64,000 bases of DNA from an uncultured Acidobacteriia bacterium (lineage in GTDB: Bacteria; Acidobacteriota; Terriglobia; Bryobacterales; Bryobacteraceae). The notes beneath the pieces are model-generated. The model saw only the letters and a program-made list of their open reading frames with translations, did not search any database and had not been told where the DNA came from. This document shows positions 20,623 to 30,709 of the stretch, piece after piece. Position 1 is the first letter of the stretch, and each line of letters begins with the position of its first letter. The translations under genes were made by a program, and so were the position numbers. The DNA is taken from assembly GCA_903828455.1 (NCBI GenBank), contig CAIKMJ010000068.1, positions 1 to 64,000 on the forward strand, in the 5' to 3' direction.

Positions 20623-23451
<2,829 letters not shown>

Positions 23452-23470
23452 CCGGGGTGATCCGAGTCTC

Positions 23471-24436
23471 ATGAAAAAGCTTGCCTGCCTGCTGTTGCTG
23501 GTTGCCGGGTATGCGTCGGCGGCAATTCTGCCCGACACTATCGGCGACTGGAAAAAGGGACCGGGCACGAGGCCGGCGCTGGCCGCGGCAGACGAAAAAA
23601 TCTGGCGCGAGTATGGGCTGCAGGATTCCGAGAGCGCTCCCTACGCAGCCGGAGTGAAGAAGTACACCATCTCGGCGTGGAGATTCGCTGACGCAACGGG
23701 ATCCTACGCGGCGTTTCAGAACATGCGACCGGCCGGAGCAAAGCCCGTCGAGGCGGCCAGCGCGCTGGCGGTGGCAAACGCGGCCGACGAACTGGTATCG
23801 GTAGGAAATTATTTATTCTTCTTCAAAGGCTATAAGCCGAATGCTGAGGAGTTGAATCACGTGGTGGGAACTGCGCCGAAGTATTCGCAGTCGCCGCGCC
23901 CCGTTCTCGCAAAGTATTTACCCGCCGGGCTGGAAGTGAATTCCGAGCGATATATCACGGGTCCGGAGAGTCTGGCGAAATTCTTACCGCAGGTGCCTCC
24001 CGGGACGGTTGCCTTCCACTTCGATGTCGAAGCGCAGGTCGCGCGTTACGGGAAAACCACGCTCGCCGTGTTCTCCTATCCGACGATGGAGATCGCCCGC
24101 GATCGCATTTCGCACTTTCAGGAAATATCCGGCGCTGTAGCAAAACGGACCGGTCCGCTGGTGGTGGTGGCGATCGCGCCCAGTGCCGATGAGGCGGAAC
24201 GAATTCTCTCTCGTGTGAAGTTTCAGGCCGACGTCACGCTGCCGGAACATGTGCCGACGCCGAAGGATAATCCGGCGAATCTGTTTCTGAATATCGTGAT
24301 CCTTTGCGGAGTTCTGATCGGGTTTTGCGTGGTATCCGGACTGGTGGTCGGAGGGCTCCGAATATTGCTGCGTCGCTCTGGCGCGTCGGGCGACGGCGAT
24401 CAGATGATCAGCCTCCATCTGACGAATCGGCAGTGA
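23471..24436 (+). CDS. Exported, C-terminally membrane-anchored protein of unknown function
   Basis: A 321-residue protein with a clear signal peptide (KKLACLLLLVAGYASA) and one C-terminal helix (LFLNIVILCGVLIGFCVVSGLVVGG approximately residues 276-300), giving a type I topology with most of the chain outside the cytoplasm. Two similar halves rich in aromatic residues are visible (FRDATGSYAAFQNM-like and TLAVFSYPTMEIARDR-like), reminiscent of DUF6599-type proteins. It follows secA by 19 bases and may be co-transcribed. No enzymatic motif was recognised. The in-frame region upstream of ATG 23471 overlaps secA and is not used. Confidence 0.65.
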   Translation: MKKLACLLLLVAGYASAAILPDTIGDWKKGPGTRPALAAADEKIWREYGLQDSESAPYAAGVKKYTISAWRFADATGSYAAFQNMRPAGAKPVEAASALAVANAADELVSVGNYLFFFKGYKPNAEELNHVVGTAPKYSQSPRPVLAKYLPAGLEVNSERYITGPESLAKFLPQVPPGTVAFHFDVEAQVARYGKTTLAVFSYPTMEIARDRISHFQEISGAVAKRTGPLVVVAIAPSADEAERILSRVKFQADVTLPEHVPTPKDNPANLFLNIVILCGVLIGFCVVSGLVVGGLRILLRRSGASGDGDQMISLHLTNRQ

Positions 24437-24633
24437 CGCCCGGCGGCCGGGAGCTCGGCCCCGGAGGTCCGAAAAAGCACTGTTTTCGTGCGCTGGTCTG
24501 ATCCATAAGTTCCTTTGGATCGTGCTGTTTGCGGGTATTCAGGGGCATTTCGGGTCGCCCAGGACGCAAGGCGCCGGAAAGTCAAGCGGAATCCGGCAAA
24601 AATATAACGGGCAGCGAAATCAAGTGCTTAACC

Positions 24634-24642
24634 TGTGGATAA
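24634..24642 (-). promoter_or_regulatory. Perfect DnaA box
   Basis: TGTGGATAA is the exact reverse complement of the strong DnaA-binding consensus TTATCCACA. It is single; no second perfect copy was noticed nearby, so this is not an origin. It lies 18 bases upstream of a promoter-like -35 element. Confidence 0.5.
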
Positions 24643-24660
24643 CTTCGGGGAGATTTTCCC

Positions 24661-24688
24661 TTGACGAAGAGTCTCCGGAAACTTTAAT
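24661..24688 (+). promoter_or_regulatory. Orphan sigma-70-type promoter
   Basis: TTGACG (24661-24666) and TTTAAT (24683-24688) are separated by 16 bases; TAATAT at 24685 with an 18-base spacer is the alternative. No plus-strand reading frame follows. A hairpin and a terminator lie within 120 bases downstream. Confidence 0.5.
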
Positions 24689-24695
24689 ATCCAAT

Positions 24696-24806
24696 CACTA
24701 AAGTTTTTGCCGGTTGTAAAGCCGTCGAAAATGATTCTCCCATCGAACTCATTCGGCAAAGCCGAGTGATGAGGCCCACCCCGCAAGCGGTGGGCCTCCG
24801 TATTTT
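24696..24806 (+). ncRNA. Candidate small non-coding RNA
   Basis: About 110 bases from the predicted start after the orphan promoter to a terminator. It contains an 8-bp hairpin with an AAA loop (24750-24757 with 24761-24768, one G-U-type pair) directly followed by the 9-bp terminator stem. There is no start codon with a sensible frame. It sits in a 546-base gene-free gap between the gene ending at 24436 and the nitroreductase gene, which is on the other strand, so it is not a leader of either. It is not recognised as a known RNA family. Confidence 0.4.
24772..24806 (+). terminator. Rho-independent terminator of the candidate small RNA
   Basis: AGGCCCACC (24772-24780) pairs perfectly with GGTGGGCCT (24789-24797) around an 8-base loop, followed by CCGTATTTT. 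The T tract is interrupted, so efficiency is uncertain. Confidence 0.6.
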
Positions 24807-24982
24807 CCGGGTGCTGCCCGCGAGCGTGAACCCTTTGTTTCGGGCGGCACTGCGGCCCCCGCTCCTGCGTCCCGCCAGAGCGATTCAGCCGCTTGAATGC
24901 GACCCGAGTCACCCAAACGCCCCGGCGCGCCGGTCAAGGCCGATCCTGGGCGCAAAAAACGGCATTTCAGCCGCCGGGCCGG

Positions 24983-25561
24983 TTAGATTTCGGCGGGGTT
25001 GCCCCAGGCGCCGTCGAAAACCAGTTCGGAGAGGGGCTTTCGCGAGCGCGCCACCGGGGAGGAGGCACCGTCCTTCAGATGGCCTACTACAAATGAAGCG
25101 CCAATCTCGAAATCGTCCGGGACTGCGAACTCGGTCCGGGCGCGCTCGGCGTCGAAGCCTCCCATAAGGTGAACATAAAGATTTCTGGCGGTTGCTTCTG
25201 CCGCCAGACTGACCCCGGCGGCGCCGGTATCGTGCATGGCGAAGCGATTCGGCAGGCCGTTCTGAGTGAAAGTCTTTCTGGCAGCCGTGAACCCGATGAC
25301 CCAGGCATCCTTCGCCCACGCCTGGTTCTTCTCCGCAAGCAGGGAGAGCAGGCGGGCGAACTGGTCCGGCCTCTCCTGCGTTGCCACCACGAAGCGCCAC
25401 GGCTGTTCATTGAAGCAGGAAGGCGACCAGCGGGCGGCCTCAAACAGGCTGCGAAGTTGGGCGGGGTCCACAGGGCGGCGGGAGAATTCGCGTGGGCTCC
25501 AGCGTTTGGCGATGACGGAATGCAGGCCGGCGGAACCGGGTTCGGGTGTGTTGACGGGCAT
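24983..25561 (-). CDS. Nitroreductase-family FMN oxidoreductase
   Basis: A 192-residue member of the nitroreductase superfamily: KRWSPREFSRRPVD near the N-terminus (FMN phosphate binding), ARWSPSCFNEQPWRF, and the late helix with AAGVSLAAEATARNLYVH. Such enzymes reduce quinones, nitro compounds or flavin analogues with NAD(P)H; the natural substrate is unknown. ATG 25561 gives the conserved N-terminus; the upstream extension to 25711 overlaps the RNase J gene and is rejected. It is divergent from the RNase J gene across a 70-base shared promoter region. Confidence 0.88.
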   Translation of the reverse strand: MPVNTPEPGSAGLHSVIAKRWSPREFSRRPVDPAQLRSLFEAARWSPSCFNEQPWRFVVATQERPDQFARLLSLLAEKNQAWAKDAWVIGFTAARKTFTQNGLPNRFAMHDTGAAGVSLAAEATARNLYVHLMGGFDAERARTEFAVPDDFEIGASFVVGHLKDGASSPVARSRKPLSELVFDGAWGNPAEI

Positions 25562-25631
25562 GGGAGTTTGGATGCAGTTTAACCCAGCCCGGTCGCGCGG
25601 GGTCCGGCAGACGGTAGAATTTGATTTAACC

Positions 25632-27317
25632 TTGAAACACACATTTCCGCTATCCGACAAGAAACTGCAACTGATCCCGCTCGGCGGTCTCGGCGAATTC
25701 GGGATGCACATGATGGCGCTGCGCTACGGCGACGACATCATCGTGATCGACGCAGGCATGATGTTCCCGGAAGCGGAGCTGCTTGGCGTCGATATCGTCA
25801 CGCCCGATCTGACGTATCTCAAAGAGAATCGCCAGCACGTCCGCGCGCTGCTGCTGACGCACGGCCACGAAGATCACATCGGCGCGGTGGCGTTCTTCCT
25901 GGCCGAATTTCCGGTGCCGGTTTATGGGACTGGATTCACGCTGTCCCTGGTGGAGCGCCGGCTGGAAGAATACGATATTGCTGAAGATCCGGATCTGAAG
26001 ACGGTCAGGCCGAAGGACATTGTGGAGATCGGCCCGTTCAAGGTCGAGTTCATTCACGTGACGCACTCCATCGTGAGCTGCGTGGCGATGGCGATCACCA
26101 CGCCGCTCGGTGTGGTGATTCATACCGGCGATTTCAAGGTCGACCCGACTCCGACCGACAACGAGCTTTTCGATCTTCATACGCTGGCCGATTACGGCAA
26201 GCGCGGCGTGCTGCTGCTGCTGTCCGATTCCACAAATGCCGACCGGCCCGGCTACTCCGATTCCGAACGCGCCGTGCGGCCGCGCCTCGAAGACGTCTTC
26301 AATCGCGCTGAAAACCGGCTCTTTGTCTCCTGCTTCAGCTCCTCGATTCACCGGCTGCAGCTGATTCTGGATCTTTCCGAAGAGTTCGGACGCAAGGTGG
26401 CGCTGGTGGGCCGCAGCATGAACTCGGTGACGGAGATTGCGCACTCGCACGGCCTGCTGCAGATTCCCGACAACGTTCTGATCCGCCCGCAGGATGTGGC
26501 CGAGGCGAAGCCGAACAAAGTCACGGTGCTCATTTCCGGCACGCAGGGCGAGCCGATGTCGGCGCTGTCGCGCGTGGCCGTGGATAACCACAAACACATC
26601 TCGATTTCGAAGGGCGACACGGTGGTGCTGAGTTCGCGCATCATCCCGGGCAACGAGAAGACGATCTTCCGGATGATCGACCATATCTCGAAGCGTGGTG
26701 CCGATGTGCTCTACGGCAGCATGAATCCGCCGCTGCACGTCTCCGGGCACGGCTCGATGGAAGAGTTGCGGCTGGTGCTGAATCTGGTGCGGCCCCGTTA
26801 CTTCGTACCGGTGCACGGCGAGTACAGGCAACTGGCCAAGCACGCTCGGCTGGCGTCGCACCTGCACAACGTGGGGCTGGAAGAAACGTTCATTCTTGAA
26901 ACCGGCGACGTGCTGGAGCTCGACAAAATGGGCGCGCGCAAGGCCGGCCGCGTCACCGTTGGCCGCGTCTGCATCGATTCCGGCGCGGTGGGCGAAGTCG
27001 TGGGCGATATGGTGATTCGCGACCGCCGGCTGATTTCGGAAGACGGCATCGTGATGGCGATTATTGCCATCAACAAGCACACGGGCAAGATCGAAGCGCC
27101 GCCGGCGATTGTGAGCCGCGGGTTCGCGCTGGAGGACGACGCCGACTTCATGAAGAAGGCGCGCGAGGCCGTGGCGAAGACCCTTGAAGGCTCCAACGCC
27201 GAAGAAATGATGGACGTCGGCGTGATGAAGGAAAAGGTTCGCGCCGACCTGAAGCGGTTCATCAGCCGCAACGCCGATCGCCGCCCGCTGATTATGCCGG
27301 TCGTGATGGAAATCTGA
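25632..27317 (+). CDS. rnj: Ribonuclease J
   Basis: A metallo-beta-lactamase/beta-CASP ribonuclease with 5'-3' exonuclease and endonuclease activity, 561 residues. The zinc motif is HGHEDHIG near residue 76. Other ligands are in THSIVSC and HTGDFKVDP. The beta-CASP part has SCFSSSIHRLQ, GRSMNS and VHVSGHGS-like (LHVSGHGSMEE), and PVHGEYRQL. TTG 25632 is chosen: homology starts there (LQLIPLGGLGEFG), and TAGAAT ends 11 bases upstream. ATG 25572 would add 20 unlikely residues. Four in-frame stops follow within a tandem repeat. Confidence 0.95.
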   Translation: MKHTFPLSDKKLQLIPLGGLGEFGMHMMALRYGDDIIVIDAGMMFPEAELLGVDIVTPDLTYLKENRQHVRALLLTHGHEDHIGAVAFFLAEFPVPVYGTGFTLSLVERRLEEYDIAEDPDLKTVRPKDIVEIGPFKVEFIHVTHSIVSCVAMAITTPLGVVIHTGDFKVDPTPTDNELFDLHTLADYGKRGVLLLLSDSTNADRPGYSDSERAVRPRLEDVFNRAENRLFVSCFSSSIHRLQLILDLSEEFGRKVALVGRSMNSVTEIAHSHGLLQIPDNVLIRPQDVAEAKPNKVTVLISGTQGEPMSALSRVAVDNHKHISISKGDTVVLSSRIIPGNEKTIFRMIDHISKRGADVLYGSMNPPLHVSGHGSMEELRLVLNLVRPRYFVPVHGEYRQLAKHARLASHLHNVGLEETFILETGDVLELDKMGARKAGRVTVGRVCIDSGAVGEVVGDMVIRDRRLISEDGIVMAIIAINKHTGKIEAPPAIVSRGFALEDDADFMKKAREAVAKTLEGSNAEEMMDVGVMKEKVRADLKRFISRNADRRPLIMPVVMEI

Positions 27318-30435: not shown

Positions 30436-30474
30436 CGGCTTTCGCAACAACCCGCGTGATATCCTGTTTTTTCT

Positions 30475-30645
30475 GGTAGAGGTGCGGCGGTCAGGAATGC
30501 GCGCTGTAGTTCCCGCAATCACGGGATGCGAGCAGGAGGGGCTTGTCGCCGAAATCGGCGCTGCGGATTGAGCGGCGCGATTGGGGGTCCGGGCTGAATC
30601 CCGGCCACTGTCATCCGGTCCAAAGGGACCGGGTGGAGCGCTATC
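30475..30645 (+). promoter_or_regulatory. Lysine riboswitch (L box)
   Basis: Directly upstream of the DAP/lysine genes. Conserved blocks of the lysine riboswitch appear in order: GTAGAGGTGCGG, TGTAGTTCC, GGAGGGGCTTGTCGCCGAAA, the GCTGAAT hairpin region (GGTCCGGGCTGAATCCCGG), CACTGTCATC and GGTGGAGCGCTATC. The closing stem P1 pairs 30475-30479 with 30641-30645. The RNA binds free lysine and normally turns expression off. The distance from the aptamer to the start codon (about 65 bases) contains no clear T-rich terminator, so control may be at translation or through an unseen terminator. Confidence 0.88.
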
Positions 30646-30709
30646 GGGATAGTGAACTGTTTCTCCATCCTCACTCTCCTCGTACGCGCATCCGGATATT
30701 AAGGCCGAT

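Follow-up and report, generated by a model that had tools for sequence, protein, structure and literature searches.

A small RNA gene of one Acidobacteria family, predicted to pair with the ribosome-binding site of a Lys/Ala-rich peptide mRNA

RESULTS

A gene-free gap carries a putative promoter, three hairpins and an exposed linker. The window, by which we mean the whole stretch of 64,000 nucleotides analysed here, contains a gene-free gap of 546 bases, as a sequence-only reading of this DNA had described. It spans 24437-24982, its limits being set by gene calls at 24436 and 24983. The upstream neighbour (23396-24436, + strand) encodes a DUF6599 protein (PF20244, E 2e-07) and its synteny with the element is kept in relatives. 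The downstream neighbour (24983-25711), which forms the right flank of the gap, lies on the opposite (-) strand, also in agreement with the earlier description.

The promoter scan found one promoter-like site where 0.1 were expected. Its -35 element, TTGACG, lies at 24661-24666 (+ strand), where the sequence-only reading had placed it. The -10 element of that reading, TTTAAT at 24683-24688 with a spacer of 16, was out of register; the scan gives TAATAT at 24685-24690 with a spacer of 18, and relatives agree with the longer spacing (17 or 18). Terminator-like sites alone were not above chance (two found, 1.5 expected), and the scan found no + strand terminator-like site between the gene end at 24436 and position 24771. 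We regard the observation as settled because the element is conserved in relatives.

The predicted sRNA extends from 24697 to 24806 on the + strand. Its start is placed 7 nt past the -10 element and its end in the terminator tail (24804-24806), positions that give a length of about 108-110 nt and fit an earlier prediction of about 110. The folding energy of 24697-24804 is -46.3 kcal/mol, whereas shuffled sequences average -26.3 (z -6.2; none of 200 shuffles as good), and 24690-24806 gives a z of -5.2. The predicted fold consists of hairpin 1, an open linker, hairpin 2 and a terminator hairpin. By folding and alignment, hairpin 1 (24703-24732) is conserved in sequence. It runs into the exposed seed UGAUUCUCCC (24732-24741), identified from locus counts and target leaders as the complement of GGGAGAAUCA. 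A second contact segment follows (24742-24748), which reads AUCGAAC in the window and has ACAUC or ACGUA in other clades. Hairpin 2 (24749-24769) is variable in sequence and carries the AAA loop and 8-bp stem noted previously, or 9 bp when the pair 24749-24769 is counted. The intrinsic terminator hairpin (24771-24798), supported by the terminator scan and by relatives, had also been recognised, with a stem given as 9 bp; the stem is present, has 10 bp and is followed by CGTATTTT. Hairpin 1, the most conserved of the hairpins, was absent from the sequence-only reading, as were the unpaired UGAUUCUCCC, the target and the family-wide distribution.

Scanning the whole window with Rfam 15 at the gathering threshold returned a lysine riboswitch only. 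This riboswitch (RF00168, 73.9 bits, 30469-30651, + strand) lies directly after an AMP-binding enzyme gene. Under permissive settings the gap yielded three matches, all below threshold; the best at the locus scored 16 bits where the cut-off is 120.4.

The sRNA gene is conserved across one family. Of 61 relatives searched with blastn, 21 carry the element. When 22 loci are aligned, TTGAC is invariant, and after it come a -10 element, the block CCAATCA, hairpin 1, UGAUUCUCCC and two hairpins whose stems are kept and whose sequences vary. The downstream neighbour varies among these 22 first loci. The covariance model R1 represents the 57-nt core alone (24691-24747, + strand; hairpin 1 and the exposed linker), with promoter and terminator outside the model. 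The sequence-only reading had proposed a search of relatives for the same structure; R1 matches 100 of the 121 family genomes and 65 of the 76 genera. Two places were matched in genome G021, both at contig ends, and one in every other matched genome. A laxer R1 rescan of 23 matchless genomes gave six matches at E up to 1. In a class-wide draw, R1 matched 85 of 399 genomes, comprising 83 of 101 from the family itself and 2 of 298 from elsewhere (family totals counted from the match listing). Both matches outside the family are weak (E 5e-4 and 0.0025), yet each has a DUF6599 homologue upstream.

Promoter and terminator are conserved together with the core. From a larger number of R1 matches, 98 loci were fetched for counting; a weak second match in L010 had been dropped beforehand from a set of 99, and two of the 98 (L018 and L022) are the contig ends of G021. 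Outside the model, a TTGA[CT] -35 element is present in 98/98 loci and is paired with a -10 element (TANNNT, spacing 16-19) in 97/98, while a terminator lies within 85 nt in 96/98 loci versus 110 of 557 control windows. These comparative counts support the earlier claim of a stand-alone sRNA with its own promoter and terminator. Inside the model, UUCUCCC occurs in 95 and GAUUCUCCC in 86 of the 98 loci. In 91 of 97 loci, a gene upstream and on the same strand encodes a DUF6599 homologue. An exact-pattern search of named genomes matched 30 stretches, that of the cultured Acidobacteriaceae bacterium KBS 96 (KB906767.1) included, with titles that are mostly Bryobacterales, Bryobacteraceae, Terriglobia, Solibacter or other Acidobacteria, and one Opitutaceae. 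From these titles, the family is probably Bryobacteraceae.

RNAalifold, applied to 30 of the 98 loci that were hand-picked as alignable, gives the same three hairpins with 25 pairs, nine of which show double changes. Covariation in hairpin 1 is weak (two pairs; 155 of 500 shuffles reach as many) because its sequence is too conserved. Judged by this comparative evidence, 24697-24806 is a real, previously unnamed sRNA gene of one Acidobacteria family.

DnaA-box-like words occur upstream of the promoter. We find TGTGGANAA or TTWTNCACA-like words upstream in 48 of the 98 loci, often at fixed positions; they resemble the DnaA-box consensus. None occur in a mostly coding control stretch 300-400 bases upstream. 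In the window, the DnaA-box-like word TGTGGATAA at 24634-24642 (+ strand) is, by its sequence, a possible regulatory site for the sRNA promoter; the strict form of the word occurs three times in the 64 kb. Another word pair, the inverted-repeat-like TAAG (or CAAG)-N17-TTA, lies about 60-100 bases upstream of the core. Its gap is exactly 17 in 35 of 98 loci, no other value between 10 and 25 being seen in more than one locus, and it is indistinct in the window itself. This pair is possibly a regulator site.

The predicted target is a gene for a very small Lys/Ala-rich peptide. The linker resembles an anti-Shine-Dalgarno sequence, and we therefore searched for GGGAGAATC-N0-11-ATG. Across 15 genomes this pattern gave 110 sites (111 matches) and the reversed pattern five. 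When the frames were read, 13 of the 110 sites, in nine genomes, were found to start Lys/Ala-rich genes beginning MKNATKKA (six) or MATKKA (seven). Among the remaining sites, the largest homologue group obtained by BLAST grouping has three members.

The MKNATKKA gene was collected by its coding start alone, without use of the leader. It is present at 52 places in 51 of the 121 family genomes, and in the class draw it occurs in 41 of 399 genomes (41 of 101 from the family versus 0 of 298 others). Its leaders contain GGGAGAATC in 30, GGAGAA in 48 and GATGT in 42 of the 52 cases, against 0, 3 and 4, respectively, of 304 control leaders, these being the leaders of long frames within the sRNA loci. 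L291, one of these 52 genes, is a paralogue with a longer product (62 amino acids) and a different leader. Peptides are mostly 18-32 amino acids long, and 52 in the genome of the window. This 52-residue variant matches PF07382 (HC2) at E 1.2e-05 and 26 bits (cut-off 40), a match that is driven by composition.

The seed UGAUUCUCCC is complementary to GGGAGAAUCA in the Shine-Dalgarno region of the peptide gene. The target is encoded away from the sRNA, on other contigs (C41 as against C68 in G000, the genome of the window), and the complementarity is interrupted and located at the ribosome-binding site. The 16 peptide gene loci that were printed share three features: a promoter with TTGAC, a hairpin at the 5' end and, past the stop codon, another hairpin with a T-run. 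Leaders of the MKNATKKA gene (L256-L305) are strongly conserved, with a 5' hairpin and GATGTTAGGGAGAATCAATCG.

Some other genes have similar leaders. MATKKAA genes recur as a second target in genus g1, where the leader pattern finds them in 7 of 15 genomes. As a family-wide second target they were rejected: of six places found by the start, two have the motif. Three of 15 genomes have GGGAGAATC before the ATG of a small protein family with a coiled-coil start and a basic, SEAARKR-like end (L149, L155 and L245). Another possible target is a transporter-like gene of G000 and G009 (L151 and L211), which carries AAAGGGAGAATCGTTATG.

Occurrence of the two partners is not identical. The seed variant UUCUCCU is found in G024 (L007), where the start pattern finds no peptide gene. 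Seven genomes have the peptide gene and no sRNA match even at E 1, and most of these are fragmented assemblies. GGGAGAATC is kept in five of them (G034, G080, G084, G089 and G124) and absent from two (G065 and G150). Incomplete assembly or a diverged sRNA may account for the five.

The sRNA and the leader change together between clades. Pairing was analysed in the 48 genomes that hold both the sRNA and the peptide gene. Four of these (G005, G013, G015 and G016) were entered by leader pattern and not by coding start; all belong to genus g1, and this genus contributes a single genome to every draw of the genus-level shuffle test. At the second contact, ACAUC/ACGUC in the sRNA and GAUGU/GACGU in the leader are both present in 35 of the 48 genomes and both lacking in nine, with one side only in four (G013, G083, G105 and G147). 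The sRNA word ACGUA and the leader word UACGU occur in the same three genomes (genera g9, g62 and g80), and the other 45 have neither. By inspection, g15 pairs CAUCGAA with UUCGAUG; G139 places UCUGUUCUCC opposite GGAGAACAGA, with seed and leader both changed; and g19 has an 18-pair run interrupted by a single bulged base.

We show that cognate pairs score better than shuffled pairs. Over 30 genera, the cognate mean is -25.99 versus -23.71 (sd 0.52) for the whole leader and -7.97 versus -6.66 (sd 0.27) for the second contact, with 0 of 5000 shuffles as good in either case. For the seed alone, 196 of 5000 were as good. Three control stretches of the same mRNA gave no cognate advantage in the shuffle test (2982, 3411 and 869 of 5000 as good). 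Reading the leader backwards, a nonsense control, likewise gave cognate pairs an advantage (4 of 5000 as good), and therefore part of the cognate signal is clade composition. Kinship was handled only by taking one genome per genus in the shuffle test, and because the genera are related, the compensations represent few events. At the level of single genomes, 35 of 48 beat the mean non-cognate value for the second contact and 13 do no better (G015, G061, G063, G105, G110, G111, G127, G133, G134, G138, G147, G149 and G160).

Within the genome of the window, the pairing is not outstanding among window genes. It reaches -21.4 and -20.2 kcal/mol for two candidate leaders, the second being that of the second target, and 5 of 35 window genes, each given its best start, score -21.4 or better (mean -15.8, sd 4.1). 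The second contact is weak in this genome (-2.5 kcal/mol). Across genomes, the predicted sRNA-leader pairing is well supported by the comparisons above.

The family generally encodes Hfq. An hfq gene was found in 115 of 121 family genomes, including that of the window (G000, contig C40), and in 13 of 13 genomes of the same genus. It was found in one of six genomes of the sister family f3, and no R1 match occurred among the f3 members of the class draw. This distribution of hfq and sRNA between f3 and the family itself is suggestive only.

DISCUSSION

The sRNA probably represses translation of the Lys/Ala-rich peptide. We propose a trans-acting, base-pairing sRNA that acts through the ribosome-binding site of the peptide mRNA, probably with Hfq, and we assign this reading a probability of roughly 0.77. 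The sRNA would be transcribed from its own sigma-70-type promoter and end at its own terminator. Hairpins 1 and 2 would keep the linker open, so that UGAUUCUCCC and the second segment could pair with GGGAGAAUCA and the bases just upstream in a small mRNA encoded elsewhere. The predicted product of that mRNA is a Lys/Ala-rich, putatively histone-H1-like peptide (MKNATKKA..., mostly 18-32 amino acids). Pairing would mask the ribosome-binding site and thus repress the peptide; we infer repression in preference to activation or sponging. Hfq would be a probable binding partner. Comparison of sequences supports the gene, its conservation and architecture, the complementarity and the clade-specific covariation. 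As to mechanism, the simplest reading is that the ribosome-binding site is occluded.

The pair might also serve chromosome biology. A DnaA-box-tuned sRNA dedicated to a histone-H1-like micropeptide mRNA could tie chromosome compaction to replication state, an extension that we consider doubtful. If true, Acidobacteria would have invented the IhtA/HctA logic of Chlamydia independently, using a micropeptide for chromatin protein.

The peptide mRNA could instead be chiefly a sponge or decoy for a real sRNA that chiefly regulates other mRNAs, those with ribosome-binding sites of GGGAG type. A seed as short as this one, and resembling an anti-Shine-Dalgarno sequence, could pair with many mRNAs; several window genes score equally well in their own genome, and the transporter-like gene of G000 and G009 carries the motif. 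The peptide mRNA is also small and in the 16 printed loci has a promoter and a terminator of its own, and the passages of PMC8216469 that concern C-rich sRNAs provide a precedent from Bacillus, where RosA sponges the C-rich sRNA RoxS. However, Lys/Ala-rich genes recur as no other homologue group does, and the contact sits on the Shine-Dalgarno sequence of a sequence-conserved open frame, as it would in a repressed mRNA. A mainly sponging role is unlikely.

Other readings question the sRNA gene itself. The transcript could be a 3'-UTR product of the DUF6599 gene that arises when read-through RNA is processed, in which case the promoter-like site would be secondary. The constant same-strand synteny (91/97 loci) and the lack of a + strand terminator-like site from that gene to 24771 speak for this origin. 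Read-through from the gene ending at 24436 may be an extra source of transcript, but it leaves the conserved promoter unexplained: the -35 element is kept in all 98 loci and the spaced -10 in 97, both outside the search model. We hold this origin to be quite improbable. More improbable still is that the core functions solely as DNA or as a promoter region, or serves as the leader (attenuator or riboswitch) of a downstream gene. The DnaA-box-like words upstream of 48 of the 98 loci would suit such a role, but the next gene is on the opposite strand, the 22 first loci do not share one downstream neighbour, and hairpins 2 and 3 are kept despite sequence change, 9 of 25 consensus pairs being doubly changed in the 30 hand-picked sequences. 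Least probable of all is a small protein from the 12-codon frame that the window contains (ATG at 24731), since ATGATTCTCC occurs in just 22 of 98 loci and the sequence that follows is not conserved.

Repression of the peptide by a trans-acting sRNA, our preferred reading, has several implications. The predicted target is backed by clade-specific covariation, which supplies natural mutant pairs. The analysis also reveals a gene, restricted to this family, for a very small Lys/Ala-rich peptide, together with what may be a second and unrelated instance of sRNA control over a histone-H1-like product. We found no description of a trans-acting Acidobacteriota sRNA with its target in the open-licence literature of PubMed Central, and none of this RNA itself in open-licence papers.

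Comparison with known systems

Several non-coding RNA candidates have been described from Acidobacteria. A table in PMC2864571 names Acido-1 (RF01686), Acido-Lenti-1 (RF01687) and Solibacter-1, the last of which is assigned to Solibacter usitatus and has no Rfam number there. Acido-1 and Acido-Lenti-1 have no match at the sRNA at the gathering score, nor up to E 10. 6S RNA (RF00013) is likewise a small, stand-alone, widely distributed RNA. This identity was rejected, with no match at the locus; 8 of 21 genomes have 6S-like matches below threshold at other places, and that in the genome of the window is on another contig (36.9 bits against a cut-off of 46.4).

RsaE is grouped with RoxS and FsrA among the C-rich sRNAs of Firmicutes. 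RNAs of this type resemble ours in presenting an unpaired C-rich stretch to G-rich ribosome-binding sites, and those of Bacillus pair through similar linkers, according to the parts of PMC8216469 devoted to them. They differ in phylum, fold and promoter, our locus has no Rfam match, and one dominant conserved target is predicted here; homology is not claimed.

The closest functional analogue is IhtA/HctA of Chlamydia, also without a claim of homology. The sections of PMC4355289 on IhtA describe it in Chlamydia trachomatis as a trans-encoded sRNA of three stem-loops that represses hctA translation. Our RNA would share with it the trans-encoded origin, the three stem-loops and pairing at the translation start region; the IhtA target is a highly basic, histone-H1-like protein, to which the Lys/Ala-rich peptide is a possible counterpart. 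IhtA uses its loop 1 to pair over the AUG, and a section heading of that paper denies contact with the Shine-Dalgarno sequence, whereas here the unpaired linker after hairpin 1 would contact GGGAGAAUCA and the bases upstream. The acidobacterial RNA belongs to another phylum and its predicted target is a far smaller peptide; the likeness is one of description. The RNA family is new, and the kind of mechanism is one already known.
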